DNA of 64,000 nucleotides. Origin: Plumapathes pennacea (lineage: Eukaryota > Cnidaria > Anthozoa > Antipatharia > Myriopathidae). Shown piece by piece: positions 6,001-45,900 of the stretch; the stretch's first letter is position 1; every line of letters begins with the position of its first letter. The notes beneath the pieces were generated by a model. It searched no databases. It had not been told where the DNA came from and was given only the letters and a program-made list of their open reading frames with translations. The DNA is taken from positions 31,830,855 to 31,894,854 of the forward strand of contig OZ038462.1 of NCBI GenBank assembly GCA_964036295.1. Direction: 5' to 3'. A program made the translations under genes and the position numbers.

Positions 6001-9000
6001 CCCAACTGGCTCACAAACAGTTTCTGTGCCTTTCAAGTCCAAAGATAAATGCCACGGAGACCCAACTAGCTCACAAACAGTTTCTGTGCCTTTAAAGTCC
6101 AAAGATAAATGCGACGGAGACCCAACTGGCTCACAAACAGTTTCTGTGCCTTTCAAGTCCAAAGATAAATGCGACGGAGACCCAACTGGCTCACAAACAG
6201 TTTCTGTGCCTTTCAAGTCCAAAGATAAATGCGACGGAGACCCAACTGGCTCACAAACAGTTTCTGTGCCTTTCAAGTCCAAAGATAAATGCGACGGAGA
6301 CCCAACTGGCTCACAAACAGTTTCTGTGCCTTTCAAGTCCAAAGATAAATGCGACGGAGACCCAACTAGCTCACAAACAGTTTCTGTGCCTTTCAAGTCC
6401 AAAGATAAATGCCACGGAGACCCAACTAGCTCACAAACAGTTTCTGTGCCTTTCAAGTCCAAAGATAAATGCCACGGAGACCCAACTGGCTCACAAACAG
6501 TTTCTGTGCCTTTCAAGTCCAAAGATAAATGCCACGGAGACCCAACTGGCTCACAAACAGTTTCTGTGCCTTTCAAGTCCAAAGATAAATGCCACGGAGA
6601 CCCAACTAGCTCACAAACAGTTTCTGTGCCTTTCAAGTCCAAAGATAAATGCGACGGAGACCCAACTGGCTCACAAACAGTTTCTGTGCCTTTCAAGTCC
6701 AAAGATAAATGCCACGGAGACCCAACTAGCTCACAAACAGTTTCTGTGCCTTTCAAGTCCAAAGATAAATGCCACGGAGACCCAACTGGCTCACAAACAG
6801 TTTCTGTGCCTTTCAAGTCCAAAGATAAATGCGACGGAGACCCAACTAGCTCACAAACAGTTTCTGTGCCTTTCAAGTCCAAAGATAAATGCGACGGAGA
6901 CCCAACTAGCTCACAAACAGTTTCTGTGCCTTTCAAGTCCAAAGATAAATGCCACGGAGACCCAACTGGCTCACAAACAGTTTCTGTGCCTTTCAAGTCC
7001 AAAGATAAATGCCACGGAGACCCAACTGGCTCACAAACAGTTTCTGTGCCTTTCAAGTCCAAAGATAAATGCCACGGAGACCCAACTGGCTCACAAACAG
7101 TTTCTGTGCCTTTCAAGTCCAAAGATAAATGCCACGGAGACCCAACTAGCTCACAAACAGTTTCTGTGCCTTTAAAGTCCAAAGATAAATGCGACGGAGA
7201 CCCAACTGGCTCACAAACAGTTTCTGTGCCTTTCAAGTTCAAAGATAAATGCGACGGAGACCCAACTGGCTCACAAACAGTTTCTGTGCCTTTCAAGTCC
7301 AAAGATAAATGCGACGGAGACCCAACTGGCTCACAAACAGTTTCTGTGCCTTTCAAGTCCAAAGATAAATGCGACGGAGACCCAACTAGCTCACAAACAG
7401 TTTCTGTGCCTTTCAAGTCCAAAGATAAATGCCACGGAGACCCAACTGGCTCACAAACAGTTTCTGTGCCTTTCAAGTCCAAAGATAAATGCCACGGAGA
7501 CCCAACTAGCTCACAAACAGTTTCTGTGCCTTTAAAGTCCAAAGATAAATGCGACGGAGACCCAACTGGCTCACAAACAGTTTCTGTGCCTTTCAAGTCC
7601 AAAGATAAATGCGACGGAGACCCAACTGGCTCACAAACAGTTTCTGTGCCTTTCAAGTCCAAAGATAAATGCGACGGAGACCCAACTGGCTCACAAACAG
7701 TTTCTGTGCCTTTCAAGTCCAAAGATAAATGCGACGGAGACCCAACTAGCTCACAAACAGTTTCTGTGCCTTTCAAGTCCAAAGATAAATGCGACGGAGA
7801 CCCAACTGGCTCACAAACAGTTTCTGTGCCTTTCAAGTCCAAAGATAAATGCGACGGAGACCCAACTAGCTCACAAACAGTTTCTGTGCCTTTCAAGTCC
7901 AAAGATAAATGCCACGGAGACCCAACTAGCTCACAAACAGTTTCCCCGTCTTTCAAGGCCAGGGATAAATCCGACGGAGACTCAACTGCAAGTGGCTTCC
8001 AAACAGTTCCTCTCTCTGTGAAGTCCAGAGATATATTTAATAGAGACTCTACTCCAACTGGCTCAAACACAGTTCTTCCGTCTTGCACACTTACAGATAA
8101 ATCCAACGGAGGCTCTCCCAAAACTCCTCTCGTGCGTGAACAAACGGAGTCGGCTGACTTGGTTAACATGGCGGACTCAACTTCAACTGATTCACAAACG
8201 GTTCTTCCGTCTTGCGCACTTACAGATAAATCCAACGGAGGCTCTCCCAAAACTCCTCTCGTGCGTAAACAAGAACTAACGGAGTTGGCTGACTTGGTTA
8301 ACATGGCGGACTCAACTTCGACTGATTCACAAACAGTTCTTCCGTCTCTCACGCCCACAGGTAAATCCAACAGAGGCTCTCACAGAACTTCCCTCGTGCG
8401 TAAACAAGAACAAATGGAGTTGGCTGACTTAGTTAACATGGCGGACTCAACTTCAACTGATTCACAAACAGTTTTTCCGTATTGCGTTTCCAGAGATGAA
8501 TCCAACGGAGGCTCTCCCGAAATTTCTCTCATGCGTGAACAAGAACAAACGGAGTTGGTTGACTTGCTCAAGTCAGGTACCAAATATGTCGCATCTTCCT
8601 CCGATACGCCGGAGTCCTTGACGGTGAAGACCACAATAAGGGACGAACCAGGGGAAGCATGTGAGGTGAATCATGTAACCATGAGGAAAGGCAGAACACA
8701 CAGAGATGTAAGCGCTCGACACCAGGGATGCAACTCAACAAAGGCTGACGTGAACGCCCAGACATCTCTGAGTTATATGGAGGTGAAGAAAAGCCCAGCA
8801 AACATTCCCCAAACAAAGCGCGATGTCTCCACAAAATCACTTGTGTGCCACCATGATGAAGGAGAAACCTGCGGGTCTGACGTGCTCTCGGATCCAAAAA
8901 CAAGATCCATTTTGCCAACACCACCTGGCAACACAGAGGAAACGGACTCATCTCTTAGCGCATTTTTCAGTCGTGATTCTGGAGATGAAGCACCTCAAAT

Positions 9001-18595: not shown

Positions 18596-18610
18596 GAAGT
18601 AATCTCTATT

Positions 18611-18924
18611 TATTATATAGACACGAGTGTTTTACTGGAAAATATACCGTGCGTAAAATCCATACGAAACTACATCCGGGACCCGAGTGGCGTATTTTCC
18701 ATATCCCCACTAGTGAGGATATCGTTGGAATCATTTCTCGCTTTTGCACGGTTGTTTGTGCAATTTCTCGTAAAACACTCGTGTCTAATATAACTAATAT
18801 AATAAAAAGAAAATTACACGGCGGCTTGAAGATATGGATTTTATTTTCTCGTGTTAAAAACAATATTTTACCACTCGAAAATAAAATTCATATCTTCGCG
18901 CCGCCGTGTAATATCCTCTATATA
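18611..18924 (+). mobile_element. Double-hairpin repeat, copy A
   Basis: About 310 bp made of two adjacent inverted repeats. The first is bounded by GACACGAGTGTTTTAC and GTAAAACACTCGTGTC. The second is bounded by TTACACGGCGGCTTGAAGAT and ATCTTCGCGCCGCCGTGTAA. Two more copies occur at 39397 and 42602. No ORF is conserved among copies. Confidence 0.8.
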
Positions 18925-19940: not shown

Positions 19941-21976
19941 TCAAAGGCCCTTGGGCTGATCTTTGTCAGTGTCACATACACTGCTGTGAGGTGTTTGGGA
20001 GCTCTTCATGAGACAGGCCTTCCTGTACGGTGGGTTAATAGGGGCTTGGGTTGGCGGCAGTGAAGAGTGCTCTCCAGAACTCAACAAGTATGTCTGGTCA
20101 GAATCATAAGCACTCAGGTCCCCACAAGCCAGAAAAGGAACTACAAACCGATTCACTCCTTCAAGACTGGAAAAAAAAAAAAAACAAACAAACAAAAAGA
20201 ATGAACAATAGAGAATAATTTTAGTAAACAACCAGATATTTTGGTAAATATCTACCACTCTTCACCTCCTCTTTAGCAAATAATATTGTTTTACATACAA
20301 ACCAGTGAGTACAAAGTGACAAAGAGCAGATTCTATTTTGATCACTAACTTGCATCATGGTGGTCTAGCCATTAAAGTTTTTACACACATTGTGGCTGTT
20401 CAGGTGGCCAAGTGGTTAGTAAAAGCAGTCTTTCTTCATGCTACAAACAATATAGCAGTTTCAAACTGCATGTGCCCTCAGGGCTGCATCAAGATATTCA
20501 ATTAGCATAGACTCTGTACAGGGGAGTCAATTCCACTCATTCCTATTGTTTCAGATGATACATTTGAGGGCCATAAGTTTATTAGTGTTATTGTCACAAC
20601 AGAGAATCTGCTAGACTCGTCCATCAGCCGGTACAGAGAACCAGTAGAAATATTTTTCCCACTACGGAGCCACCTGGAACCAGTACAACATATATGTGAA
20701 GCAAAATAATCGTTTCTTTTGCTGCAGTGGAACTGGCCATGAGATAATCTATTTTATCGAGTTTTTGACTGTTTTGGAGCATTTCTTCGTCAGAATGAGT
20801 AGAATATCCAGTGTGGGCTCCCTGTGGACAGGAGAGCCGTCAGAAGAAGAAATGTTGTACTTCAAATTTTCCGGTACAGAATATCGGCAGCCTCAATTTT
20901 TTTCTGGTATGGTACAATTTTTATCAGAGTGAAATACTGGCATATGCCGGTCTAGCGGAATCTCTGCACAATTACATGTATACATTTGTTACATAGTTAT
21001 TAATTATTATTATCATTAATTATCATTATTATTTTTATTATAATAATAACTGTATTATAAGTGTGGGCCATGTGCACAATGCAACACTGTTAATTGACCT
21101 GCGTCATTTATTACAAATCCAGCACTAACCTGTCAAAATTAGGACTCCTAGGTTGGTCCAACAATGGGTTGGCCATAGTTGGAATATACCCATCTGGAGG
21201 TGAGTAGTTTTGACAAACCACAAAAGCTTCAATGCTTGAATTCCGGCTGCTTCGTGGTTTACATATTGTGACAATCGGAAAGAAAACTTTAAGCTGGGCG
21301 TACAGAAGTGACACATCCTTCCCACGGAATATTTTGGCTACAAAATGACCCCCTCTCTTCAGGACATGTGTTGTAATATTTAAAGCTGATAAAAGCAGCT
21401 GTGCTTGAATATATTCATCAATGTCATGAAGTCCTGTCACATCTGGGGCTCCATCACACACTACCAGATCTGCCTTCTCACCTTGAAAATGACTAATTAT
21501 ATCAGTAGCAGTTGATACCTGTGTAGACAAAAAGAATCTTCATTCACATATGTGTATAGTTCTGGCATACTACGGTCGGTACTACGGTCGGTACTACGGT
21601 CAGGGAGGGGGGTACTCCCTTATATTTGCTATATTGGGACATTCCGCCCAATAGGGTATCATTTTCAGGGTCCTCTGTCTTAAACGGGGTATAGAATTTT
21701 ACATGTCATGTTTTGGGTTATCCCCCAAAGATCTCCTCCTCCTCTCCCCTCCTCAACCACAGAATTTCTTTGTATGCTCCAGTGGAAGCGTGTGCAATGC
21801 AGGCTAACATATATCTGTGTTGCGTAGTTTTTGGTTTGAACAAGGTCACAAATTAGAGCACTTTGTCTCAGACAGGATAGCAAAATTTACATCTGTTTGT
21901 CTTAAATAGGGTCAGGGTTTTGTAGTCATCAGAACCTCCCTTCCCAAATTTCTACTGAGTGACCATCGCTCCCCCC

Positions 21977-22007
<31 letters not shown>

Positions 22008-22522
22008 ACACACACACACATCATAATCACAACTAAGCAAATACTTTCAGACTTTTTCAGCAGATCTGCTCAGAAAAACGTGGTAAACGTGGTATGCCAT
22101 ACAACAAATGAATCACGTCATACATTTCAGTTATAAAGTCCATGAACTTTTTCTCGTAGTAAATGGTGTGATTGTTTTTGTTTGTAAATTAATGTCACAA
22201 TCGCATTAAACAGCAAAGTTCGTACCTTGGTGATATCTCCTTGAATCTGAATCACACCAGGTAGTGGGGCCATAGCCTGTAAATCTACCGCTACAATTTT
22301 CACAGCCTCTCTCTCCTCTCCTGCGTGATCCACCAGTTTTCTGCTCAAAACCTGACTCCAACTCCCTGGGGCAGCACACAGATCAACTACACGGGATACT
22401 CCCGAGAAGAGGTTGAAGTCCTCGTCAAGCTGTAACAGTTTAAATGCACTTCTTGCTCTCCAGCCCTCTTCCTTCGCTGTTCTGTAGTAAACATCTCGTT
22501 TGTCCTTTGATGATCGACCCAT
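19941..22522 (-). CDS. FTSJ1: FTSJ1/TRM7 tRNA (cytidine/guanosine) 2'-O-ribose methyltransferase, 3 exons
   Basis: Cytosolic SAM-dependent enzyme that 2'-O-methylates positions 32 and 34 in the anticodon loop of certain tRNAs. Coding exons on the minus strand are 22522-22226, 21518-21130 and 20166-19941, with phases 0 and 2 and all GT-AG. The product is 303 residues; human FTSJ1 is about 329. The start [14 protein letters not shown] matches the family start; an upstream in-frame ATG adds only four residues. The SAM motif is [16 protein letters not shown]. The K-D-K-E catalytic tetrad is visible: K28, D in [10 protein letters not shown] in FVAKIFRG, E in SSIEAF. The last exon carries the family's C-terminal [15 protein letters not shown] segment and [11 protein letters not shown], but the remaining tail is short. 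Confidence 0.95.
20398..20480 (+). repeat. tRNA-like segment, possible tRNA-derived SINE head
   Basis: TGGCCAAGTGG fits a pol III A box and about 45 bases on, GTTTCAAACTG fits a B box, the layout of the 5' end of tRNA-derived SINEs. A full cloverleaf is not obvious. Lies in FTSJ1 intron 2. Confidence 0.35.
20600..20966 (+). mobile_element. MITE with CAGAG termini, copy 1
   Basis: Begins CAGAGAATCTGCTAGAC and ends with the imperfect complement GTCTAGCGGAATCTCTG. It is flanked by CACAA on both sides (20595-20599 and 20967-20971). The body is similar, in reverse orientation, to the element at 41423-41762. CAGAG-type ends resemble hAT elements, but the flanking duplication is shorter than the usual 8 bp. 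It lies in FTSJ1 intron 2. Confidence 0.7.
21519..22225. other. FTSJ1 intron 1
   Basis: Contains a short tandem repeat (ACTACGGTCGGT, about 21567-21603) and a poly-C run followed by (CA)n at 21971-22020. No gene seen. Confidence 0.8.
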
Positions 22523-24293
22523 CTCTCCGTGCACTGAACATTGGCTGAGCCCGCGACACGGAACGCGGTCTTATTCGGGGTCTCCCCATTCCCCCTCAGC
22601 TCGCTTGCTCGTTCCAGTTCCCTCTAGCTCTTCGGTTCTCATGAAATAAGGTTTCTTTTCAGAGGAAATACTGATAAACAGAAATATTTCTGCATTCCGC
22701 AATCCGTCAAATTCGTCTGATTCTAAATCAGGAACTTTTAGTTGTTTTGGAGAGGGAAAAGTGAGCTCTTGGACCACGTTCACCTAGCACATAACATGCC
22801 GCGCGCAACGCCGCGTGTCCGTGGAGCTAGCTTTGGCTGTTTGAATTGCAAAGAGGGATAAACCTCACACCATCAGCACCTTTCAATATTTTTATGTCAG
22901 ATCTTAACAGTATGGACTCAAACTTCGAACCAGCAACCGGTTTCTGTTTGCTCTAAATTGTGCAAAAGAGTCGTTAACGATATTATGTTCATTATATAAA
23001 TATCTTGTTCAAATAAATGCACGACTAATATCATTATGTTCTCTGACTCGCACTTGGTAAACCTTTGATAGTAGCTGTGTAAATATTAGCCCGGGTTGGG
23101 GGTTATGGAGGAGGAGGAGGGGTACTCTTCATCATTTCGGGACTGAGAGTGTACACCCGGTTCTGAAAGTTAGTCTGCTGTCTGGAATTGCAAATTTCAC
23201 AGATATCAGTAATATCACAATTTTTTTATATGAGAATGTTTTATACACATATAGCTGCGTAAACCTTTCTTTCGTAGTTGATACTTTTTATGTGTGGGGG
23301 GAGGGCACAATCAATTATGTACAACATTTGCGCAAAAAGCGCTCAGACTATGACCCCAAAAGTGAAGGTTGGTATTCAGGCACCATCCAACGCCTGTCTC
23401 TTTAGGCTTCGTTTGAATTTTTCATCTGGTGACATACATGCCAACCACGACCGCTTTAAAGGCTTATAACCATCCCCCCCACCCACCCCCCCCCCCCCCT
23501 CCCCTCCCCGTCACAGGCTAATCCTACGATAGAGCCAAGCATTTCTCACTGCCATGAGCAAAACAAGCGATTTTATTACCAAGACTGTACATTAAAGATT
23601 TCAGTGTATGTCTACAAACTGTACACACAAATGCAATATAAACAATTATCCGCATTAACTCAAAGGGTCAGTACGTTTCCTGACTGAGCACTCTTGCAGG
23701 TGCGAAGGCTTTAAGGAAATTCTACTTATTCCTTCCTATTTAGTAATTAATCATCAGTTTTTATTGAATTTATCAAGGAGATGAGTCAACAGCCATTGTG
23801 GATTGTTGTGAAAGCAGAGGGGGAAAAGATAGCAAGGTAGAAATTAACAGAAACATGTTCACTGTTCCCTATTTGGTAAATCAGTCAGGATACACAAAAT
23901 GTTCTGACGACGAATATGTTAGTGTATTTTGCCTTTTGGCAGTAAATGGCCTTTGAACAGCCAAGATTAATATGGTTTTCTAAGTATATCTTCTAGCATT
24001 CAATTGTAACGTACTACAGCTAAATTTAGACCGTAGCTCGTACTATAGCGTAATAGAGCTTTGAAAAAATTGGGTCAGGTCTTTTGGCTGTGTTTGTTGT
24101 TACTGAAGTCTATACTTATAGATTTTATGATTCATCTGTGAATTCATTTGTCGGTAAACCTTTGCTTATACGCTGCCATAAATATATATTATTGGCTGTA
24201 AAATGCTAAAAATTCGCATACATTTTGTCTTCAGAATTGCGCAGACATGTCACTGCTATCATGGTATATAAGAAAAAACTAACTGACTGCAAA
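22523..24293. other. Spacer between FTSJ1 and the dystroglycan-related gene
   Basis: Both flanking genes are on the minus strand, so this holds the FTSJ1 promoter (left) and the 3' UTR of the dystroglycan-related gene (right). A 70-residue ORF at 22571-22783 has no recognisable domain. A C-rich run lies at 23474-23510. No other gene is supported. Confidence 0.6.
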
Positions 24294-26777
24294 CTACGTG
24301 AAGCCACTGTCACTTTGAAACAGCCACTTTGACACGTTTCCTTCTGACTGACCCAGAATTCCCTTCACCTGAGTTTTGAAGAAGCCTGTGATACTACCGC
24401 TGTCATCTTTGTCCTGCTGCTTCAAAGAAAAGATCGAGCCGAGCAAAGAAGCCCCTCTCTCCCCCCCGGATTGACGCCGAGGCCGCTGTCGTCCAGGCGG
24501 CTGCTCAAAAAGTTCCGGCATGGACGAGAAGCATTCTTGCTGTGATCTGTGCAGATTCTCCTTGCCATACTCGTCCTGGCAAAAATTCTCTGACGATAAT
24601 CGGCTCCTTCCTCTCGGCGTAGTCAAAGAAAATTGGTTTCTGGCCCCATCGTCGTAGTGATAGGGGTTGACGTACTCGTTGTAGATCCCTCTGTCACTGC
24701 AAGTATCCCCGAGTTCCCATTCGTTCCGCGCCAAAGAAGAGTCCACCACAAAACTCCTCATGAATCTAGATGCCTCCTCTTCTTTCTGCCGGTATAGCTT
24801 ATTCATATCTACATCTCGATACTCGTCGTAAACGCAAGACGGGGCATTTGTTTCCGTTTCACCAGTGTACCTCAATGTGTGGTCTCTATATTCCAAATCA
24901 TTCGTTGTCACGTCATAGAAGTTATAGCAACATTCGTCTACGTGACTAGGAGTGTCGTACTCAGGGATTTCCATATCAGATGGTCCGTAGTCTCCATGAG
25001 CATCGTCCCATCCGTACAATTGTGAAGTTTCGTTGTCGGAATAACCATAAGGCTCCCATGGTTCCGAGGGGTCATCGTTGGACAGGCCTTGTCCCCCTGC
25101 GAGGCTGAGCACGGACTTGCCGAAATGTCTAAGTTTTGTGAGAGTAGACGATTCATTCTCAAACGTGTCTGATGGAGTTTGGGATTGACCCTGGGAAACA
25201 TTAAGCATCGACTTGGTGAAGTCGACTAGTTTGCTGGAGATGCTAGGCGAGGCGCTGATTGAGCCCTCTGCTCTTACATAATCTGTTTGTTGGTTTGCAA
25301 ATGGCTTCCCCGATGGGTTGCCCGCACCCTGTGGTTTTGATGATAAGGTTGATATTTCATCTGTAGCTATGTTTTCCACCGGCTCAGCTTGAGTTGATGT
25401 AGCATTGAGCACACTTTTCCCAATATCCATCAGTTTGGATGAAATGTTGCCGGCCAGCTCCGTAATATTCACGTCTGGCATGATTGACTTGGCTTCCTCG
25501 GCTTCCCCTTTACGGATGTTGTAATAAACTGGAATGTTAAGTTCCGCTTTCTCGGCTGATTCATTATCGTCGTCATCGTCATACATTATTTCTCGCATAC
25601 TTCGGATGGGTTTTTTGATATTCTCTGGCTTTTTCTCTACGTTCTGGTTCAAGTTGCAGGTACCCGAGTTCTGAACACAAGGGATCTTTACCGTCTTGCC
25701 GTTGGGAATGGCAAGTCGACGACTGTTTGAAATGTTCGCGTTAGCTTCGTAATTTTTCTCTTCGTCCGTCATGGCCTCCTCCTTGGAGTTATTCGATACA
25801 GACAGCATGGAGGGGTATCGATTGTTATAATGAACCGTGTGGTACGTAAAACTGGCGTCTTCTTCCTTTCTCGTTGCATTGGCTCTTCTTCTCATCTCCC
25901 TTGCGGCTTTGGCTTTGGACTTTCTTACAAAAATCGAAATAGTTACTGGGATACCAACCACCGCTAATAGAATTAGGACTGGTAGGACATGTTTCATCCA
26001 ACCTAAGCCAACTGGGGCATCCGCTGGACCTGAATTGGGGTTGCACGGGCCTAGGAGATTCACTTCCACTTTTGTCACTTTGATCCAATATTTTTCTCTA
26101 GGTGAGGACGATTCTACCATCAAATGATTGCGTTCGTTTAGCTTTTTCTCCATATTGTCGATGGCTTTTTTGTCACAAGGCGAATACTCTATATTTCTAA
26201 AAACTATCGTAAGTGTCATTTCTTTGTCGAAATCTTTGACCCAGACATCGCCCCAGACATCGCTGGGTGAGTGACTCATGACGTAGTTTGCGATGCTGGT
26301 GACAAGATTGAATCTCAAGTCAATGTTTCTCATGTAATCCTGGTAAGGCAAGTCCTCCGTGCTCAAAATTACCTCATGGTTATGAGGAAACGATCCATCT
26401 TTCACTTGTATAATGAGGTCTGTCTTTGCTGTAGCGTTTTGTGAATTATGTGCAATTATAGAAAAGTTGAAGGTATGCGGGGCGTTCCCTGGCAGTGGAA
26501 ATCCATAGACCTTTGGATTATTTTTTTCTCCGTTGAAGCGAATCCATGGAGGAATCTTCTTTCCATCACCCGTGGTCATACTTAACCGCAAGTTCGTGTT
26601 GTCCTCCCTGTCGTAAAAGGTATTTTTAGGGATGGGAATAGTAAATGCCCCGCCAGTGTACACTTCTGTTCTATCAAGAGGATTCGTAACTTGTGGAGCC
26701 CCTTGAGATGGCAGCTCAGTTGAATTGATGGATACCAACGAAAAGAATAACTTGAGGACACCCAGTGCTTTGGACAT
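24294..26777 (-). CDS. Dystroglycan-related single-pass membrane protein, single exon
   Basis: An 827-residue protein. A hydrophobic start (KALGVLKLFFSLVSI) fits a signal peptide. Residues about 28-130 form a dystroglycan/sarcoglycan-type cadherin-like domain (NTFYDREDNTNLRLSM, PPWIRFN, VYGFPLPG). Residues about 130-245 match the SEA-like domain that follows it in dystroglycan (NHEVILS through LLGPC). A transmembrane helix (VLPVLILLAVVGIPVTISIF) lies near 262-283, followed by a basic stop-transfer stretch. The cytoplasmic tail is about 540 residues, acidic, with three related segments (SSKLMDIGKSVLN, SSKLVDFTKSMLN, TKLRHFGKSVLS) and no C-terminal PPxY. It has one module where its neighbour dystroglycan has eight. 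The dystroglycan PPxY tail is absent, so dystrophin WW binding is not expected. It could instead be called sarcoglycan-like; the NHE-type second domain favours dystroglycan. Confidence 0.8.
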   Translation of the reverse strand: MSKALGVLKLFFSLVSINSTELPSQGAPQVTNPLDRTEVYTGGAFTIPIPKNTFYDREDNTNLRLSMTTGDGKKIPPWIRFNGEKNNPKVYGFPLPGNAPHTFNFSIIAHNSQNATAKTDLIIQVKDGSFPHNHEVILSTEDLPYQDYMRNIDLRFNLVTSIANYVMSHSPSDVWGDVWVKDFDKEMTLTIVFRNIEYSPCDKKAIDNMEKKLNERNHLMVESSSPREKYWIKVTKVEVNLLGPCNPNSGPADAPVGLGWMKHVLPVLILLAVVGIPVTISIFVRKSKAKAAREMRRRANATRKEEDASFTYHTVHYNNRYPSMLSVSNNSKEEAMTDEEKNYEANANISNSRRLAIPNGKTVKIPCVQNSGTCNLNQNVEKKPENIKKPIRSMREIMYDDDDDNESAEKAELNIPVYYNIRKGEAEEAKSIMPDVNITELAGNISSKLMDIGKSVLNATSTQAEPVENIATDEISTLSSKPQGAGNPSGKPFANQQTDYVRAEGSISASPSISSKLVDFTKSMLNVSQGQSQTPSDTFENESSTLTKLRHFGKSVLSLAGGQGLSNDDPSEPWEPYGYSDNETSQLYGWDDAHGDYGPSDMEIPEYDTPSHVDECCYNFYDVTTNDLEYRDHTLRYTGETETNAPSCVYDEYRDVDMNKLYRQKEEEASRFMRSFVVDSSLARNEWELGDTCSDRGIYNEYVNPYHYDDGARNQFSLTTPRGRSRLSSENFCQDEYGKENLHRSQQECFSSMPELFEQPPGRQRPRRQSGGERGASLLGSIFSLKQQDKDDSGSITGFFKTQVKGILGQSEGNVSKWLFQSDSGFT

Positions 26778-32255: not shown

Positions 32256-32451
32256 AGCCTTGTCCTCACTAGCGCATAAGCATAAGCATAAGCATAAGAA
32301 TAAAAGAGCGACAGTGGCGACATAAGCATAAGCATAAGGATCAAACATGTTCGTTCCTTATGCTTATGCTTATGTCGCCACTGTCGCTCTCTTATTCTTA
32401 TGCTTATTCTTATGCTTATGCTTATGCTTATGCGCTAGTGAGGACAAGGCT
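32256..32451. mobile_element. Nearly perfect palindromic MITE built of CATAAG units
   Basis: A 196-bp palindrome begins AGCCTTGTCCTCACTAGCGC and ends with its complement. It is flanked by TTA on both sides (32253-32255 and 32452-32454). The arms are filled with (CATAAG)n and (CTTATG)n around a short loop near 32340. The TTA target suggests PIF/Harbinger mobilisation. It lies about 260 bases past the dystroglycan stop codon. Confidence 0.85.
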
Positions 32452-32716: not shown

Positions 32717-35700
32717 TTAAGGCGGGACGTACGCAGGAGGCAGCCTGTATCCAGAGTAGGACACCATCCGCGAGCTGGTACTACTGACGCTGCTACTGTA
32801 ACTGTAACCACTGGAATTGGAAACCATTTGAAAGCTGCTTCCTCCTCCACCACCAGCGCCACCACCACCACCACCACCACCTCCACCTCCACCTCCAGCA
32901 CCACTACCGCCTCCACCAGCACCAGCACCAGCACCAGCACCGCCTCCACCAGCACCGCCTCCACCTCCCGCACTTCCTGCAGCACCGCCGCCTCCACTTC
33001 CGCCAATACCTCCACCTCCGCCTCCGCTACCACCACCACCACCACCACCACCACCCCCAGCAGTAAATGTATTGCTAGCCCCAAGGGTAGTGATTCCACC
33101 TCCCGAACTCAAACCACCAGCACCACTGCCAAAAGGAGCCTGGTAAGACATGTTCTTCCTTTCAGAGGCTACGACTGGAGACGAGCTGGGACTACCTCCA
33201 GGGTTACGCGAGTAGGTCGGCGGGGGAAGAGGGGGCTTCTCATTGGGAAGGACAAGCGGCTGTTTTAAAAGCAGTTCCTTCACTTCATACTCCTCCCTAA
33301 ACACAACCGGTTTTCGCTTGTAGATAAAAGTGGTTTGGTCTGCACTAGAGAGCTTTTGGCTGCGACGACAATGCATCATGACACAGGCAGCGCCACCAAT
33401 GATAAGAAGAACAACGCCCACAACGACGACTGGAACGATGGCGTAGGTCCACCACACGCCCTGCAAACGTCCTCCGGCGAGGGCACCTACGTCTGGCGGA
33501 ATTGCCACACAAGGTCCACGGAATTCATAGGAACTGCCTGAAACCTTAAACTGCGGCTGCAAAGCACTAACCATTAAAGGGTTCAAATTGTCCACGCCAA
33601 ATAACTCCCTGATAATTTGCCACTCAGGAGAGTCACAGGTCGCTGCAAATCGGAAGGTGAAGAACACTCCGGCACCATATTCAAGAACGCGTATGTCGCC
33701 AAATGGTACTTTAAAGTATGCAGCAAGTTTGCGCAATAATTCTACCCGCACAGCAACATCATTCAAGAAGGTAGCATTATCAATGCTCAGCCAAATAGTG
33801 AATTCGTGATTGTATTTCTGGGTGTCTTCATCCACATAAACTTCAAACGCATCTTTTACCATCAGTCCACCAGAATCTGTGGCAGTCATGACGAATTCAT
33901 TATGACCAAGCCTCCTTTTTAAAGGGAGACCATATATAACCTGGCTGGATTCGTTCAACAACACCCAAGATGTATTCAGCAGTTCCTCGTTCTTAATGGT
34001 CGTCATTTTCAGGCTCAGATTTCGGGTTTGTCCGTCTTCAGTGTCAAAGAAGGTATCGTTGGGTATTAGGTAATATAATCCTTGTCCCTCAAGCACCTCG
34101 ACGCGGTCAATGTGATTTAGCACCACGGGTGCCTTGTTGGGTTGGCCACAATGACCAAGTAACTCAAACGTACTCTTCAGAACCGGCACTTCCGGCGCCA
34201 GCGCGGCCTTCAGCTTGGGATCTGTTGTCTTGGACGCAAAGCCTTCCTTCAAACTAACCAAGAAAGGGTCACGGCAGTCGTCATATGGTATATCAGTGAA
34301 GTGAAATATGAATTTGCTTCCTGGTCCCATGGCAACTATACGAATTCTTGAAACAAGAACGCTAAAGTACCTTGCGATACTGTCAACAAGTTTGATCTTG
34401 TCTGCCGCATTCCAAGCACCGTCATCAAGTTCAATCTCCAAGATAATCTGATGATTGTATGGTGCAGGCTGCATGACGTCGACTTCGAACTTGGCGTGAG
34501 CTGTTAGTTTTTTCGAGTCACTTGCAATTATCTGAAACTCTTGAAGTCCAAGATTTTCCTTCATAGGGATGCCATAAATAACCTGACCACTGCTGTTCAT
34601 CTTGATCCAAAAGTTTGCACCTAGCACTTTGTTATCTGATGAACGCAAATCCAGTTCCAGATTTGGGGTCCACTTGTCTTCTCGGTCATAAAAAGTCTTC
34701 TCAGGAACAGCATACCGTATGACCGATCCTGCAATTACCTTGAATGTCTCCATTTCTTCATTCACATGTGGAGGTGAGTTGCTGCAAGATTTAAGGAGTT
34801 TGTACGTTCCATTCAGGAGTTTGAACTGCGGTCGAAGGGCTTTTATGAACTCGTCTTCCAGTTTCATTTCTGAACCAAATGACTGTATGATCCCAGGGAG
34901 TTGAGATGTACAGTCACTGGGAGGGATGGAATCAAAGCGGAAAGTAAACTTTACTCCAGAAGAATATGACACAGCACGCACATTGGACGTATTCACAGTA
35001 AAGTAGGAAGCAATCATGTCCACAAGCTGGAGCCTTTTCGCTAAATCGTTCATTAAGGAGGAATCGTCAACCTCGATGTCGAACTGGTGATTGTAATCGT
35101 TGCTATCCTCTTCAACCTTCACGGTGAACGTACTGTTTACTGTAAGGCCCTTACGATCCGTTGCTCTGAGCGTAAACTTGTGAGATCCCAGTTCATCCTT
35201 CAATGCCAGTCCATATATCACATTCGTCTTCTCATCAAAACGGACCCAGTCGGAGGGTGGGAGGAAATCGACCTTTAAAGTGTTCGTGTCTTCTTTGTCG
35301 AAAAAGACATTGTCGGGCACTTTAAAGCGTTTCACTTGTCCGCTTATTAGTACAAGCTTGTCAATGGGATTGCGCACCTCGGGAGGCGTATTCTTGCATG
35401 GGTCGAGGAGCTCAAGGTCCCCAGCAACAACTTGAAACGCTTTCATAGACGCCTTAAAAGCAGGATTAATCTTCCCATTGGATAAGAACCCGCTCTTAAT
35501 TTTCGCCAAAGCAGGATCATCGCATTTATCAAACGGCACATTGGCAAACCGGAAGGTCACAGTTGGACCTGCAGCAATACTCGCCACACGGAGTTCGTCC
35601 TCGTTCACATCAAAATACTCTGCAAGTTTCTGAACAAGTAAAAGCCTGTTCTCCACCTTGCTGTTGAAGGCATTTTCATCGTAACCCAGCTTTATAACTA

Positions 35701-38700
35701 ACTGATGGTTGTATTTGTTCGTGTCATTTGAAACCGTAATTTTGAGGTTACCATAACCCTTCCTATTATCAACGTCCGTTGCAGACATAACAAACTTGTT
35801 GGCGCCTTGATTTGCTTCCAAAGGAAGTCCACCTATTGCACGTTTGCTTCCGTTGAACATGACCCAATAGGATGACGGGAGCTGTTTCCTGTCCTCTGTG
35901 AGTAAGGAAAGTTTTAAGTCGTACTTGTCCTGGTGGTCATAGAAAACGTCACTTGGCAGGACTTTGTATAGAACCTTCCCAGCAACAGCAGCTATGTCGC
36001 CGATGGGCTTTATTGCCTGAGGAACACCAAGATTCAAACAAAGGCCAGACACCTTGTACTCTCCAGAAATCACTGGGAAGTCCGGCTCGAGGGCTGTTTT
36101 CAAGGCAGGGTTCAGCTCCACACCAGAATAGAGACTTTCTATTGCTTTTATAAGGCCTGCATATTGACAGTCGCCAAATGGGAAGGAGGCAAATCGGAAG
36201 ACGACCTCGACACCAGATTTAAAGGACACCATCCGCATGTCGTCTTTATCGACTAGAAAGTAATCTGCGAGTTTCTTTAGCAGGCCCACTCTAACGTCTA
36301 CATTGTCTTCAAATGCTGGGAAATCGTACTTGATCTTTATGCTGAAATGGTGGTTATATTGATTAGGATCTTGCTCCACTTTGACAGTAACAGGCTCCTC
36401 GGCTGTTAAGCCGCCTGAATCTGTCGCCTCTACGATGAATTTATTCTCTCCAGGCTTCAGTTTTAAGCCAAATATGACGCCATCTTTAACAGTCCACGAG
36501 TCAGATGGAAGTGGCTTACCATCAAATTTCAATAGTTTCAGTGCCAAACTGCTCGCGTCTCCATCTTGACGATCAGCAAACACATCGCTCGTTCCAATCT
36601 CTATTGGCTGACCGGCAATTGCTGTGATTGGTTCAATGGGATTCATTACTCGAGGACCAGTGTTTTCGTTGGCGCAAGGCCCCAGAAACTCGTACTCTCC
36701 ATTTTGAACTTGAAACTTTGAATCCAGTGTCGTAATCAAGTCTGAATTTAGCTTTCCCTTCGTCCAAAATTTCTTGATAAAGGTTTTGAGATTTTGGTTC
36801 TCACAGTCATCCAAAGGTATACCACTGAAATGAAACGAGAAGCGCAGAGCAGCATCATAAGAAGCGACTCGAATGTCTGATAGGTCAACTCCGAAGTAGG
36901 AGGCTAAACCTGATAGCAGATGGAGGCGGTCTTGAAGATTATTATCGAATGTGTCAAAGTCATAATCTAACTGGATACTGAACTTGTTGTTGTAAACTTC
37001 CGAGTCCATGGCAACAATAACTTGGATTGTGTCTGTCGCTGACAAGTTGTGGGAGTTTGTAGCTTCTACAATAAAGTCTCGCTGTCCAATATCTTGCGTA
37101 AGAGGAAGCCCGTAAATTTCTTGTTCTTTGTTGAGAAGTAGCCAAGAGGAAGGGGACACAGGTTTGCTGCCAGAATCAAGCAGTTTCAGGTTCAACAACT
37201 GCGTATTTCCATCACTGACATCAGCGAACGTGTTGCTGGGGATCTGAAAATAAAAGGCTTGCCCAGACACCTTGTGGATGGAGCCAATTGGGTTCATAAG
37301 CTTCGGAGGCACATCACGTTCTTCGCATATTCCAAGAAGTTTGAAGTTTCCACCCACGACCTGGAACTCGGGCTGGAGGTGGGAAATGAACGATGGTCTC
37401 AGTTCGTCACCCGACGTGAACGACTTCTGTTTGTTCAACAACTGTTGGTAGTCACATTTTTCATACGGCACAAAGTCAAACCGGAAGATAAACTCAACCC
37501 CGGGCTTAAAGCTGACAACCCGCATGGACGACAGTGGGACATCGAAGTACTTGGACAGCTTGTTCAGGAGCGAAATTCTGACAGTGACGTTATTCATAAA
37601 CGAAGCCTCGTCGTGCTTCAATGAAATGCTAAACTGATGATTGTATTGCTTTGTATCTAGCGTTGTGTTCACTTCCACATCTTCGTAGGCCTTTAAGGCG
37701 CCACTGTCCATGGCAGTCAGGATGTAATCATGGGTTCCCACGTCAGCCTCCATGGGAAGGCCATAAATCGTCTGATTCAAACTATTAAACAGAATCCATG
37801 AAGAAGAAGGTAGTGAGCCTTCGCCAGATGTCAGCAGAGCCAGCTGGAGCTTTCCATCGCCACTAAAACCATCTTCCTTGTCAAAGAAAACATCGTTTGA
37901 CAGCTGAACCTCAAAGGGCTGTCCAGCAAAGGAGCTGATCGGGTCGATCGAGTTGTAAACGTCAGGAGAGTTATTTGCACACGGATCCAATGGCTGGTAG
38001 CTACCATCACGAACGACAAAATCCTTCCCAAGCGCGTCTATGAAGTTCTGATTTAAACCGTTACCGCTCCAGAAAGCGTCTTTAAGTTTTAGCAGTTTAG
38101 CTGACTGGCACTCACTGAGAGACAAACCAGCAAACCGGAACGTGAACTCCACGCCAGGGCCATACGATACGACACGTACGTCACCCGAGCCGACAAGGAA
38201 GTAATCCTCTAGCTTTTTCACCAGATTCAGTCTCAAGGCTACATCTCCTGAGAAGACAGCATAGTCGTTGTCCAGTTGGATTTTGAACAGGTGGTTATAC
38301 TGGTCAGTGTCTTGCTGTACATCGACTTTAGCTTCAGAAGAAACTTTGAGTCCTCCAGAGTCCACTGCAGACACGAAATACTGATGTGCACCACTTTGTG
38401 CGTCCATAGGAAGGCCATAGATCTCTTGCCTGGCAGTATCAAACAAGATCCACGATGAAGAAGGCAGTGGTCCATTCGAGTCTGTCAACATCTCTAGCTT
38501 CAGCTTATCTGTCCACAAGTCTTCAGCGTCGAAGAATGTATCGCCCGGTATTTTGAAGCGTAAGGGCTGGCCCGTAAGTGCCGTGATCTTATCGAGGACT
38601 TTGTTTACTGTGGGTGGCAGGTTGGGAGGCACAGGTTTTGCAGAAGCGGTAGGTCTGATTGTGGTCCGAGTGACTGAGATAGAAGGTGTAGGGATGGTCT

Positions 38701-41211
38701 GTGTGGGTGTAGCAGTTGCGACTATTGTTCGCGTTGGACGTTTTCCTGCTGCGACATATGTGGGCTGTCCAGCGGTTGGCAGGGGAGTGGGTGAAAGGAT
38801 GACGATATCACGACGTGTTCGCTTGTGGGTGCTCTTGGGATACCCTGAAGTGATGTGCCATCCACTAACAGGTACCTCAAGCACTCGCACAAAGGTCCCT
38901 GTTGCTGCACTAGACTTTAACAATGAAGCAACACGGTTACCTGCAAGAAAATGAAGTAAAACAATAAGCAGTATGCAAAGATAACTGTAACCTTACCACC
39001 CACTAAAGTATAATGAAATGTACTGTAATGAAAGAGGAGAGGGAACAGGACAGATAGGATAGAGGCAAAAGGACAAAAAGAGTGAGGAAGGAGGGTAGAT
39101 GAATTGAAGTGGAGCTAAAGAGGAGAGTAGAAGGAGGAAGAAAAGAGGGAAGGAAGGAGAGAAAAAGAGGAGGGAAAAGAAATGAGGAAGGGGAGAGAGG
39201 GTGGAAAGAGAGAGGACTGAAAAAGAAAAAGATGAGGATGGAAAGAGAGAGGACTGAAAAAGAAAAAGATGAGGAAGGAGAGAGGACTGAAAAAGAAAAA
39301 GATGAGGAAGGAAGAAGAGAGAACTGAAAAAGAAAAAGATGAGGAAGGAAGGAGAGGCAAAGAAGTGGAGAGAACAAGAACATAACCTATAATTATTTAT
39401 TATATAGACACGAGTGTTTTACTGGAAATATACCATGCATAAAATCCATAAGAAACTACATCCAGGACCCAAGTGGCATATTTTCCATATCCTCACTAGT
39501 GAGGTTACCGTTGGAATCATTTCCCGCTTTTGCATGGTTGTTTGTGCAATTTCTCATAAAACACTTGTGTCTAATGTAATAAAAAGAAAATTACACGGTG
39601 GCTTGAAGATATGGATTTTTATTTTCTTGTGGTAAAAACAGCTCGTTTGTAAAATATTGTTTTTACCACTCAAAAATAAAATTCATATCTTCGTGCTGCC
39701 ATGTAATATCCTCTATTTATACACCAAGTCTCTTCATATTTACATGTTCTTCCAGAGAGCTAAAATCTATACAATACACGGAAAGAAAAGAAAGAAAGAA
39801 GAAACTAGGGAAAGAGGATGAGGAGTGGTGATGGAAAGAGGAGAATAAAAAATATGAAGGAAAGGAGGGGAAAGGGAGGAGAAAAGTGGACGAGAAAAGA
39901 GGAAGGAGAAGAAAAGGATGACAAAAAGGAGGAAGGATCTGGTACTGCACCAACTGAAGCCAATGTACCATACATGTACTTCCTGTTTTCATGAATATGA
40001 TACTGTATGGTAACATACTGCACCTGCTATGTTGATGCCACAATCGATCTGCCATGACACAGCCACACCGGGTTCTTTAGCATCGGTGACGTCTCCCGGG
40101 CCAGCAGTAAGGATCATGATGTCTTTCAGACCAAAGGCCGTATTATGACCTTTGCCAAGTGCCATGTGTAACTTCTCAAGTTCAATGTCAAAAACTGTTG
40201 AGACCTTCTTCAGAAGTTTTATCCTCTGGTCTCCACTCAGGCTTGTAATTTTCACATCAAATACAATAGTTGCAGCTGTTACTGGCATCCTATCCACACA
40301 GTGTGGTTGATTTACCACAGCAGTTTTGGTCCTGTTTCCTTGGCTTGGGTTTTCTATGACATCACTGACATCTTTCACAATGACATCAAAACTGTGCACA
40401 GAAGACAGTTTAACTTGAAGGCTGTGTGTCCCTTTGTCCCTCCAGGATGGGACTCCTTGGAGTACACCATTGGTGGAGTCATATGACAGCCAATTTGGTA
40501 AGGATTCTTTTCCTGTTTGTGTTACCTGTGAAAACAAGGAGGATACAGCCACATTTGATTAATTCAAGAAGCTATAGACCTCCAAGAAGTACAGACTTAA
40601 TGCTAATAGAACAGTTGTATTTGTTGTATGTATTGTGCCGGAATCCATGCAGCACCATACTGTATACATACTGTAAGTACATGTACTGTATTGTATTGTC
40701 ATACAAATAAGAAAGTGCCAAATAGCCACTTTAGAAATTAAAAAAAAAAAGAAAAAAAAAAAAGAAAGAAAAGGATTGGCACCAAGTGTGCAAAATTTAT
40801 CAAGTTAAAAATTGAACACTGTTGCTAGAAAGGGAAGATCCTAAATTATTAGTTAACTTACAGCTTGTGCTTAGCACTGTAACTATTTTGGTTTTGGTTT
40901 TGGTTTTGGTTTTCAAAAATCATCCACAAACTGGTCAAAAGACATTTGGAGAAATAAAGCTGCTTCAGTAAAGGATTCTACTCTGATAGGCTCAGCAGTT
41001 ACAAATAAAACACAGCTGACAGACTCCACACTACTGTATATGTACATACCTTGCCAGGTGCTTTAGAATCAGCCAGGTTGGGAACATAGTAAATAAATGG
41101 ATGACCAACAACAGCCACAATGTTGGGGAGCTCTTGATCAGATGATGACATGCCTGTTGCAACAGCAACAAGTGTGCAAAGAAGACACAAAATCTCTTTC
41201 AAGAACATCAT
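32717..41211 (-). CDS. DAG1: Dystroglycan with eight tandem ectodomain modules, 3 coding exons
   Basis: Links extracellular matrix to the dystrophin complex at the plasma membrane. Minus-strand exons 41211-41050, 40525-40024 and 38940-32717 give 2295 residues; vertebrate dystroglycan is about 895. In order: signal peptide (MMFLKEILCLLCTLVAVATG), N-terminal alpha-dystroglycan domain (residues about 27-215: GKESLPNWLSYDS, DQRIKLLKKV, LTAGPG), furin-type site KRTRR (261-265), short Thr/Pro mucin-like segment (SPTPLPT, ATPTQTIPTP), eight cadherin-like plus SEA-like modules, transmembrane helix (about 2047-2070), and a tail with RRSQKLSSADQTTFIYKRKP and KPPLPPPTYS that match beta-dystroglycan. The end is LPPAYVPP, a PPxY ligand for dystrophin WW-EF domains. 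A Gly-rich insert lies before it. The human Gly-Ser autocleavage pair is not evident in the last SEA-like domain. Confidence 0.95.
32850..33135 (-). repeat. Glycine-rich coding repeat in the dystroglycan cytoplasmic tail
   Basis: About 90 residues of nearly pure Gly with scattered Ser and Ala, encoded by GGT/GGA/GGC/GCT codons (CACCACC-rich on the plus strand). It occupies the place of the Pro-rich segment of vertebrate beta-dystroglycan, between the PPTY and terminal PPAY motifs. Mixed codons suggest an old but still slippage-prone repeat. Confidence 0.92.
33500..38612 (-). repeat. Eight tandem ~630-bp dystroglycan modules inside one exon
   Basis: Modules start (minus strand) near 38612, 37940, 37290, 36640, 36005, 35360, 34755 and 34110. 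Each begins with a NPI/IDxI-type strand, then GQ...(I/V)P...FxDxxD, SSW(I/V)L, IYGLPL and ATDSGGL, then YNHxFxI and a SEA-like half ending in (L/G)PC. Identity between modules is moderate, so the expansion is old. No intron separates modules. Confidence 0.92.
39020..39375. repeat. Polypurine (GA-rich) tract in dystroglycan intron 2, first block
   Basis: Almost uninterrupted A/G on the plus strand with internal tandem units (GAGGACTGAAAAAGAAAAAG, several copies). Long ORFs here on both strands are low-complexity artefacts. Confidence 0.9.
39397..39720 (+). mobile_element. Double-hairpin repeat, copy B
   Basis: Same two-hairpin layout and orientation as the copy at 18611, with scattered mismatches and a short extra segment (CAGCTCGTTTGTAAAATATT) in the second loop. 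Lies in dystroglycan intron 2. Confidence 0.8.
39775..39945. repeat. Polypurine (GA-rich) tract in dystroglycan intron 2, second block
   Basis: GGAAAGAAAAG- and GGAGAAGAAAAGG-type purine sequence, 60 bases beyond copy B of the double-hairpin repeat. Confidence 0.85.
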
Positions 41212-42601: not shown

Positions 42602-42903
42602 CATAGAGGATATTACACGGCGTGAAGATATGAATTTTATTTTCGAGTGGTAAAATATTGTTTTTACCATGAGAAAATAAAATCCATATCTTCAAGCCGC
42701 AGTGTAATTTTCTTTTTATTATATTAGACATGAGTGTTTTACGAGAAATTGCACAAACAACCATGCAAAAGCGGGAAATGATGCCAACGATATCCTCACT
42801 AGTGAGGATATGGAAAATACGCCACTCGGGTCCCGGATGTAGTTTCGTATGGATTTTACGCATGGTATATTTTCCAGTAAAACACTCATGTCTATATAAT
42901 AAA
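42602..42903 (-). mobile_element. Double-hairpin repeat, copy C
   Basis: Reverse-oriented third copy, closest to copy A. It includes ATCCATACGAAACTACATCC, GGACCCGAGTGGCGTATTTT and the CTCACTAGTGAG palindrome on the minus strand. Confidence 0.8.
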
Positions 42904-45900
42904 AAGCACTATTAAATTTTGTAAGAGGTTAGGTCTCAATAAACTCACAATGCAGTGAGCAATTTCTCTATAATTTTGCCTGCTGTAGTGATGTATTTTC
43001 AACATATTGGTTGGATGATTTAGAAGATAATTTTCCAAAGCCCCATCCTTCCTTTTCTCAAAATCTTAGTTCAGAAAAAATGCCTATATGTTTTTGATTG
43101 AAATGAAAGGATGAAAATTTAGCACAATGACTGCTACCAGGAGTGAGGGTCCAGCTGTTGCTGCTGAGGAACAGCTGCATTCATCAGTCATTTTGTTTTT
43201 TTACAGAAACCTTTTTACTGAGGCAAGAGATTTCAAACATTAAAGGAACAGGACCCCAGGAGGGATTAAATTTATCTTTCTCACCAGATAATGGACAATG
43301 GTGCCATCTGATAGATTTGATTTAACTATCAATTCTCACTACACATCACCAATACATCTTCTTAAGCACTTGGGAGAATTTGCCCAGGTGTTATAATCGG
43401 GTTATGCAATAAAGCTGATACGCCGATACCTTTGGAACTTTCCGCAGTCAAAACAATGATAGCAGAAAGACTCAGATAAGAAAGTTTGTGTTTGCTTCGC
43501 TGTGTCAAGCCAACAAAAATAAGTGAAAGTTTTCCACGATTAGAGAAACGACTTCATAAAGGGGTTGTGGACGACGACAAACAATGATCAACTTAACTTT
43601 TGAAGAGCTATTTACGGAGTTGATCTCAGCTTGGACCACCTGTTCACGGCGTATTTGCCAAACGCGGTTAGAATGCATTTTACTTATGACAGGAAATCGA
43701 AACCGATTGATAACAGTCGAAAACACACAAGCAGCTGACAAGAAAATGCAATCGAAAAATTCACCGATATTTACACTGAAACATTGTATAATAGTACTTG
43801 AAGCTAATTTATTGGTCACGGAAGGTTCAACTTAAATAATTCATTGCATAATTCTGTATTCTGGATAAACAACCTGAGGAAACAGTGGTTTCCTGTGGAC
43901 GATGTCCCACCAAGAAGGGTGTTTCATTTCACAATTCCTTGGATACCGTAAGGTAATAAAATTATCGTCTTGTTTGGTTGCCAAAAGCTCCGGCGAAACC
44001 GGAAACTTTCTTTCGTTATCGGTGGAGAACGAGAAAGGCTATCGAATTCCGTCCGCTTTGAAGGTTTGAAGATATCACGAAAATCATAGTATTCGTACGA
44101 TCACACACAAGTAAGGGAGTACAGGAAAATATTTGATTAGCGGAAGAACAGAAAATTGGCCGCGCAGACAAACGCGAGTGTCGCCCCGATTAAAATTGCT
44201 CACTTTCAATCCGATCAACAACAACGCAGCAGGTAACGTGAGAATGAATTTACCAGGCGCACCATCACCGCAGAGCTCCAAATTTTACATAAGTCAATTA
44301 TCATGGAATGAAACAAATATAAAGGTCTCAAAACATATCGGTCAAATGGCCAAGCTCCAATAATGACCCTTGAAAGCTTCAGCAAATTCTCTGAGGAGAT
44401 GTGAACAGGGCATTTTTCTTCTTTTATGTCATTGGATTAACGACGCCAAACGTGATGATAGATGGACAGAGCGAACTGCATTGGCAATCTCAGTTACCTG
44501 CGGTGATGTACATGTCGCCTTCTTTTTCTCCGCCTTGATGCTTCGTGTCGACAAACGGATGTTCGCCGCCCATGTGCGTCTTGACCGAAATTAAAACACA
44601 ATCCAATACGACGCAACACTCCTGGAGTTTTTTTGCACTTTTCAAATATATTCGAGAGGAAACCAATACTTAACTGCTAAAGAAGGACAGCGAAAAATTT
44701 CACGAAAATCGACCGTTGTTCAAAGATGTAAACAACCCCGTCATAATCAATAGTTCTTTCTTTGACCAGCACCACAGTGGATAATTTATTCAGTCTTTCA
44801 ACACATGAAAATTGCGATGGTTTAACCTTTTATCGTTTTGTCGTGAAAGTGAAGAGCAAGGCGAATACAGAAAGAATATGCAATACAGAACAATGAATAA
44901 GAGTGACTCGATGCCGACACTGTTAAATTATGCAGTCGTAGCAATATGTTTCTTGGTTCTCCAGAAGTCTATTAGGAACTTAAACAACAGCGTCACCACA
45001 AGTTATCCGACAGAAACGCCAAAGAATAACATAACTCTTTGAGCGCAATAGAGAACGCTGGCAAAAGAAGCGAAGCCACGCCATCAACTGAAATGCCCCT
45101 GAAATGTGATATAAAGGATTGCTCACTTACCCGGTCACACTGAATCCTTCAAATTGTAGATGCTAAGCAGTAAGGCCAACAAGAAACGGAAGTAGGGCGA
45201 AGTATATCACTGACACTCTGAGCTACAGTGAACGAATTTCTGGTTCACCACAGCAAAAACTCACTTCACGGGACTCCAGACCAACAGGCTTGGCTGAACA
45301 ATTGACATTTGATTGACACATACTCTGAATACCTCTGAAAAAGATTAACCAATCAGAATTGCCTTTTGTTCGCGTCTTTGGAGATCAGTTGCCGCGAGAT
45401 TGATGTTGCCGCGAGAAGGGAACTGTCCTGCACTGTTACGTTTCATGTACAATAAAGCATGTTCCAGAACACTTACTTTGCTGTTTCATGTTGAAGATTC
45501 AGTATTCGTTCATTGTTCCCCACCCCCCAGATTGAATGTGAAATGGTTTTATAAATCTCTCTTTTAGGGCACTCCACAAAACCCGCGACAGCTGTTTGTG
45601 ACTGTCAGAATGCCTTCCATTTCTTGGCAAGAACATACTCAAGACAGGCGAACATGGAGGCAAGAGAAGTAATCAAATACAACGGCAGTTATATTGGCAA
45701 GAGCGGGCTCTTGTGTGACAAGTGGCCATGTATGTCTGTTTTCAAGCTCTTCAAAGCGTTTTCAATATTTCTTTCCTTTTATCTGAGAATCGGGGAGAGG
45801 GATGGGATGTACTTAACAGGGCGGGGAACTTTTTGTCTTCCGCTTTTCTGGATCCGCATGGCTGTTGTTCGTCCTGAATTAGAACTCACACGTACACTGC

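Follow-up and report, generated by a model that had tools for sequence, protein, structure and literature searches.

The window analysed here, 64,000 nucleotides of the antipatharian Plumapathes pennacea (GenBank assembly GCA_964036295.1, contig OZ038462.1, positions 31,830,855 to 31,894,854), carries on its minus strand a dystroglycan gene, DG-1, and a smaller relative, DG-3; a second full dystroglycan, DG-2, lies elsewhere on the same contig. Dystroglycan links the basement membrane to dystrophin, and many muscular dystrophies trace back to its mucin stalk. DG-1 has three exons bounded by GT/AG splice signals (Table 1), its splice phases (0 between exons 1 and 2, 1 between exons 2 and 3) are mutually consistent, and the spliced model yields the predicted product of 2295 residues proposed by a first-pass annotation of the DNA. 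A single open frame runs from 38992 to 32717, of which exon 3 proper begins at 38940, after a TTGCAG acceptor; the expectation of 2091 stop-free codons by chance is about 2.5e-44 under uniform codons.

The product is a dystroglycan by its domains and by their order: a hydrophobic N-terminus (residues 1-25, by hydropathy only), IG1, S6, the furin-type site HKRTRR, a part bearing Ser, Thr and Pro, eight modules, a single transmembrane segment (the one C-terminal hydropathy peak, residues 2047-2080), DQTTF, a cytoplasmic tail and, at its extreme end, YRLPPAYVPP. Pfam searches with the long frame matched PF05345 (E 6.1e-40, 7 stretches) and PF05454, DAG1 (E 1.6e-36, 4 stretches), and the open reading frame containing exon 2 matched PF05345 (7.5e-6) and PF18424, a_DG1_N2 (5.9e-11), so that the IG1 and S6 diagnostic of dystroglycan (DAG1) are both there. 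Two further hallmarks of the family are an IG2_MAT_NU module ahead of the membrane and a C-terminal PPxY, which is of the dystrophin-binding type by its sequence; DQTTF aligns opposite the DQATF of vertebrate beta-dystroglycan. The mucin-like region, which the first-pass annotation put at about 60 residues, has 64 (28% Ser+Thr, 19% Pro, one Thr-Pro-Thr). That annotation had thus identified the gene, its furin-type site, its juxtamembrane motif and its PPxY end correctly. It had also recognised the N-terminal domain, which is present but is encoded mostly by exons 1 and 2 (41211-40024), beyond the interval 32717..38940 that it gave for the finding. A CCA/CCG-type simple repeat (32834-33059, minus strand) encodes a Gly-rich stretch of the cytoplasmic tail.

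Table 1. Positions of DG-1, its parts and the neighbouring DG-3 within the window.
Feature	Position	Strand	Content or basis
DG-1 exon 1	41050..41211	-	initiating Met, hydrophobic segment at the N-terminus, beginning of IG1; donor AAG/GTATGT, phase 0
DG-1 exon 2	40024..40525	-	remainder of IG1, most of S6 (a_DG1_N2, E 5.9e-11 in containing open reading frame)
DG-1 exon 3	32717..38940	-	S6 end, furin-type site, mucin-like part, eight modules, transmembrane segment, cytoplasmic tail, stop
HKRTRR, furin-type site	38810..38827	-	motif only
Short mucin-like part	38618..38809	-	composition, 64 residues
Module M1 (IG2 + SEA-like)	37970..38617	-	module tiling, fold prediction
Module M2	37310..37969	-	module tiling, M1 genome search
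Module M3	36659..37309	-	module tiling, M1 genome search
Module M4	36026..36658	-	module tiling, M1 genome search
Module M5 (Gly-Pro at maturation-site position)	35387..36025	-	module tiling, M1 genome search
Module M6	34775..35386	-	module tiling, M1 genome search
Module M7 (Gly-Ser at site, then Lys)	34133..34774	-	module tiling, M1 genome search
Module M8, membrane-proximal (Gly-Val, without Gly-Ser; five N-glycosylation sequons)	33503..34132	-	module tiling, M1 genome search
Transmembrane segment	33368..33457	-	hydropathy
DQTTF	33326..33340	-	alignment with vertebrate DQATF
Gly/Ala/Ser run, 57 residues, cytoplasmic tail	32834..33004	-	within simple CCA-type repeat
YRLPPAYVPP, dystrophin-binding-type end	32720..32749	-	motif
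DG-3, neighbour gene	24294..26777	-	827 residues counted from the chosen Met; a single module (26702-26037), transmembrane segment; without IG1/S6, mucin or PPxY

The most conspicuous part of DG-1 is the array already noticed in the first-pass annotation, in which eight modules of 204-220 residues tile residues 330-2034 without a gap, all of them within exon 3 and joined by linkers of 4-6 residues. Each of the eight has exactly two Cys, and pairwise identities range from 29 to 44%. When M1 was used as a query against the whole genome (290 Mb, 24 contigs), all 8 modules were found in the DG-1 frame, M1 itself at 1.2e-144 and the other 7 at 2.4e-50 to 3.0e-28. The closest pair is 44% identical in protein and 53% in nucleotide sequence, third codon positions are 26-37% identical between modules, and not one of the 5101 15-mers of the array is repeated on its strand. 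We therefore reject a recent tandem expansion. The collapse of modules, which the first-pass annotation had named as what could undo its count, and likewise an expansion in assembly, are rejected on the same absence of repeated 15-mers; the true satellite arrays of the window, by contrast, repeat 3648/3772 and 2036/2266 of theirs. It is thus very improbable that the number eight stems from misassembly, or that exon 3 is really several exons or a pseudogene: the gene model was derived solely from the assembled genome, and the CCA-type tract of the tail, being a simple repeat, could be mis-sized, but the window contains no N and the frame stays open throughout.

The same divergence bears on whether the array is a product of neutral drift, in which unequal crossing-over acted after the first two modules had arisen, length was loosely tolerated and the difference between six modules in Nematostella (see below) and eight here is noise. 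Independent duplications of the module in urochordates, as well as in hemichordates, arthropods and placozoans (PMC4582122), are in keeping with this, as is a count that differs between two cnidarians. We nevertheless hold it to be improbable, since the lack of any recent pair implies that turnover is not ongoing, and fold residues and Cys are kept in 8/8 modules.

Vertebrate dystroglycan is cut at Gly653-Ser654, and the beta chains in solved structure entries start with that Ser. The maturation consensus is Gly-Ser followed by three hydrophobic residues (PMC4582122). We looked for it in the membrane-proximal module M8 and found Gly-Val instead, so that DG-1 lacks the mark of a cut dystroglycan there. 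At the corresponding position M5 has Gly-Pro, M7 has Gly-Ser followed by Lys, M3 has Ala-Leu and the remaining four modules have Gly-Val. Because M8 has no Gly-Ser, the chain is probably uncut beside the membrane. The site is not universal, being described as missing in nematodes, urochordates, several arthropods and Nematostella, which has Gly-Pro (PMC4582122). This loss, like DG-2 and DG-3, was absent from what the first-pass annotation said of the array.

That annotation had left open whether such an expansion had been described. It has been, with a different count: the dystroglycan of Nematostella vectensis has six tandem IG2_MAT_NU modules, a short mucin region, no Gly-Ser and a cytoplasmic insertion (Adams & Brancaccio 2015, PMC4582122), its modules all lie in one exon without being exon duplications, and cnidarian genes carry an S6 intron (Brancaccio & Adams 2017, PMC5216574). 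DG-1 resembles it in 1) tandem, intron-free modules, each with a sequence of its own; 2) a short mucin-like region and a furin consensus; 3) the lack of the Gly-Ser maturation site; 4) a cytoplasmic insertion; and 5) an extra intron 3' in the S6 region. It has, in short, the features of this array type (a single exon with three or more modules in tandem, a short mucin, no Gly-Ser, a cytoplasmic insertion), and its eight modules are a variant of the published six. Arthropod, hemichordate and placozoan dystroglycans have the same module in tandem, but in two copies only (PMC4582122). The length of the mucin region varies widely among dystroglycans, down to nematodes that have none (PMC4582122), and a 2021 survey describes cnidarian mucin regions as much shorter than vertebrate ones (PMC8478517). 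With vertebrate DAG1 (8yt8, 9c3c, 8uf4) DG-1 shares IG1-S6, the furin site, the IG2+SEA fold, the Cys pair, the transmembrane segment, DQxTF and the PPxY end; the vertebrate protein differs in its one module, its longer mucin and its Gly-Ser cut into alpha and beta chains, against eight modules, 64 residues and no such site in M8. We read DG-1, with reasonable probability, as a dystroglycan of functional appearance that belongs to the array type described in Nematostella and has eight IG2+SEA modules.

The genome search revealed a second DAG1 match. Matches to S6 numbered two in total, both scored, and the sole other full dystroglycan among them is DG-2 (C1:27594708-27605893, plus strand), 4.3 Mb from DG-1. 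Its model of four exons was built by hand from splice signals; of three candidate start Mets the third, adopted here, gives 2092 residues, the other two 2097 and 2170. DG-2 has IG1-S6 (PF18424, 3.1e-7), a furin-type site RHRVRR with CTPTP ten residues further on (Thr-Pro-Thr-Pro), a stalk of 1383 residues of which 43.5% are Ser+Thr, a single module with Gly-Ser-Val-Ile-Phe, a transmembrane segment and a tail with four PPxY and a diverged end, PPPMYALPPLLYKK. It is therefore nearer than DG-1 to the vertebrate design, but for the length of its stalk. The two proteins are 29% identical over 291 columns, from IG1 to beyond the furin-type site, and 40% over 68 columns of the membrane-adjacent tail, and their junctions between exons 1 and 2 coincide, both being in phase 0. 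The intron after S6 belongs to DG-1 only, whereas those of DG-2 sit within the mucin part, where the middle exon (C1:27599946-27601442) has 499 codons between two phase 1 introns, so that its skipping would keep the frame and could thereby determine how long the stalk is. We read the two as duplicates with two designs of stalk, which may have divided their labour. GT49-type enzymes are encoded at two loci of the genome and dystrophin-type EF-hands at three.

The third gene, DG-3, follows DG-1 on the minus strand at a distance of 5.9 kb. Its module is 28% identical to M1 (E 2.2e-8), and its transmembrane segment and tail make up 567 residues. We also considered DG-3 as a candidate alpha/epsilon-sarcoglycan. 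At E values up to 1, its Pfam matches were PF05345 (4.2e-7) and a single weak one to an unrelated model, with no sarcoglycan family among them; in the PDB it matched dystroglycan chains (9.3e-7 to 4.7e-6) and, weakly, an unrelated chain. No 19-residue window at its N-terminus exceeds the hydropathy threshold, a short hydrophobic run lies near residue 7, and an upstream exon may be missing from the model. Genome searches with M1 and with the modules of DG-3 and DG-2, which hit at least ten, at least nine and at least ten places, respectively, returned no further locus.

A module tree computed without DG-3 places the DG-2 module with the vertebrate one, against all eight modules of DG-1 (support 100/99); with the long-branched DG-3 included, this support drops to 93/96 and is not starred. 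The tree, which gives the duplication no date, has one vertebrate sequence and, among cnidarians, this genome alone, so orthologues are not separable from paralogues in it. The forks among M1-M8 stay open in both trees. M8 as sister of the DG-2 module alone is disfavoured (p-AU 0.024), while a group of M8, DG-2 and the vertebrate module is compatible with the data (p-AU 0.42), and M8 may be the founding module. The topology would fit a conventional module in DG-2 and a derived array in DG-1 or, alternatively, faster evolution of DG-1.

How might such a receptor work? Vertebrate LARGE1 builds matriglycan only when the N-terminal domain is linked to the mucin-like domain, and the core is carried by Thr 317, 319 and 379 (PMC12514197). 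A literature search for a Thr-Pro-Thr motif of POMGNT2 returned no paper, and we do not treat the Thr-Pro-Thr stretches here as recognition motifs. By analogy we propose, with moderate confidence, that DG-1 is an array-type receptor whose modules act as a spacer. First, its IG1-S6 part, released as in vertebrates by cleavage at the furin-type site, would help to glycosylate the 64-residue Ser/Thr/Pro piece. Second, eight folded, disulphide-closed modules instead of a long mucin would keep this glycan-bearing piece away from the membrane. Third, the tail would bind dystrophin via its YRLPPAYVPP end. Fourth, the chain being uncut, load would pass through one polypeptide. DG-2 would then represent the conventional design, with one module, the Gly-Ser site and an enormous mucin stalk. 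A spacer role is plausible and already in print, as a speculation that enlargement by modules yields a more rigid ectodomain and brings the N-terminal and laminin-binding regions farther from the cell (PMC4582122). The contrast with DG-2 fits the idea without testing it.

Several points weigh against this reading. DG-1 is known here from genome sequence and structure prediction alone, from which we infer its rod shape, non-cleavage, ligand, binding to dystrophin and division of labour with DG-2. The predicted structure of the M1-M2 pair (pTM 0.58, from a four-row alignment) leaves the angle between modules, and hence a straight rod, unsupported. Metalloproteases can cut SEA domains that lack Gly-Ser, and the Gly-Ser of M7 makes one cut inside the array possible. 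With so short a mucin and a single Thr-Pro-Thr, DG-1 may bear little matriglycan or none, and the array might then serve a purpose other than presenting it. Finally, the spacer idea leaves unexplained why there are eight modules rather than more mucin.

In the chief rival, spacing is not the main role of the array; its eight modules would instead bind ligands or sense force one by one, every module being a ligand site or a latent switch sensitive to proteases. Intact cadherin-like plus SEA-like units of dystroglycan do work as proteolytic, force-gated switches in chimeras (PMC6586460), module identities of 29-44% leave room for distinct specificities, and the N-glycosylation sequons of M1-M8 differ in number (0, 3, 1, 0, 2, 3, 1 and 5). 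Age alone also gives such divergence, though, a Notch-type cutting site adjoins the membrane, so that distal modules could free only the tip, and the ligand of a module is not known. We thus consider separate units unlikely, and keep to the array as a spacer.

The remaining features of the window surround these genes. A perfectly abutting inverted repeat with two 74-nucleotide arms, 95% complementary and made of GCATAA-type units, lies just 3' of the DG-1 stop (32274-32421). A dispersed element of about 200-300 nucleotides occurs three times (18606-18903, 39426-39624 and 42618-42906; 92-96% alike), one copy being in intron 2 of DG-1. On the minus strand, 21111-22570 holds a gene of at least two exons for an FtsJ-type RNA methyltransferase (PF01728, 3.3e-22 and 4.4e-27). 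On the plus strand, 1-4929 is a 1642-codon frame, open at the window edge and consisting mostly of a 249-nucleotide (83-residue) repeat in at least 15 copies of 95-100% identity. An array of a 60-nucleotide repeat (36 copies counted) occupies 5698-8379; each of its two strands has a long open frame (1168 and 841 codons), and either may be the coding one. An Rfam scan of the window gave no matches. The assembly also includes the mitochondrial genome (contig C24, 17.7 kb), with TGA read as Trp. Its COX1 is in separate pieces, between which lies a LAGLIDADG frame (PF00961, 2.6e-12), the C-terminal part of ND5 is detached and adjoins ND3 and ND1, and ARAGORN, run on two halves, found two tRNAs, one for Met and one with anticodon TCA (SeC by the bacterial code, read as Trp). 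Split COX1 with LAGLIDADG, split ND5 and two tRNAs mark Hexacorallia, i.e., anemones, stony corals and their kin. A search of this one genome for GFP, taken as a taxonomic marker, gave no match, a blank that carries no weight.

The reciprocal pair of DG-1 and DG-2 is more interesting than the number of modules. A limited search, covering passages of text from papers outside subscription journals, brought up no account of a second dystroglycan in a cnidarian (PMC4582122, PMC5216574, PMC8478517, PMC10293626, PMC5253434, PMC6441219, PMC8480191, PMC7853314, PMC8382919), and the passages on Nematostella make no mention of a mucin-type one (PMC4582122, PMC5216574). A transcript table of Acropora digitifera labels two different assemblies dystroglycan 1, which could represent either separate genes or fragments of a single gene (PMC5864212). 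We tentatively suggest, at somewhat less than even probability, that this hexacoral has divided dystroglycan between two receptors that complement each other: DG-1, a protein rod that stays uncut and is linked to dystrophin, and DG-2, a brush that is cut and bears matriglycan. If so, the published picture of a short-mucin, site-less cnidarian dystroglycan would rest partly on the array paralogue alone, and pairs of the same type would be expected in other hexacorals. Surveys of early animals may accordingly have compared paralogues of dystroglycan rather than orthologues. Two natural stalk designs in one genome, a protein rod and a mucin brush on receptors that are otherwise equivalent, would let the length, stiffness and cleavage of the dystroglycan stalk be asked about.
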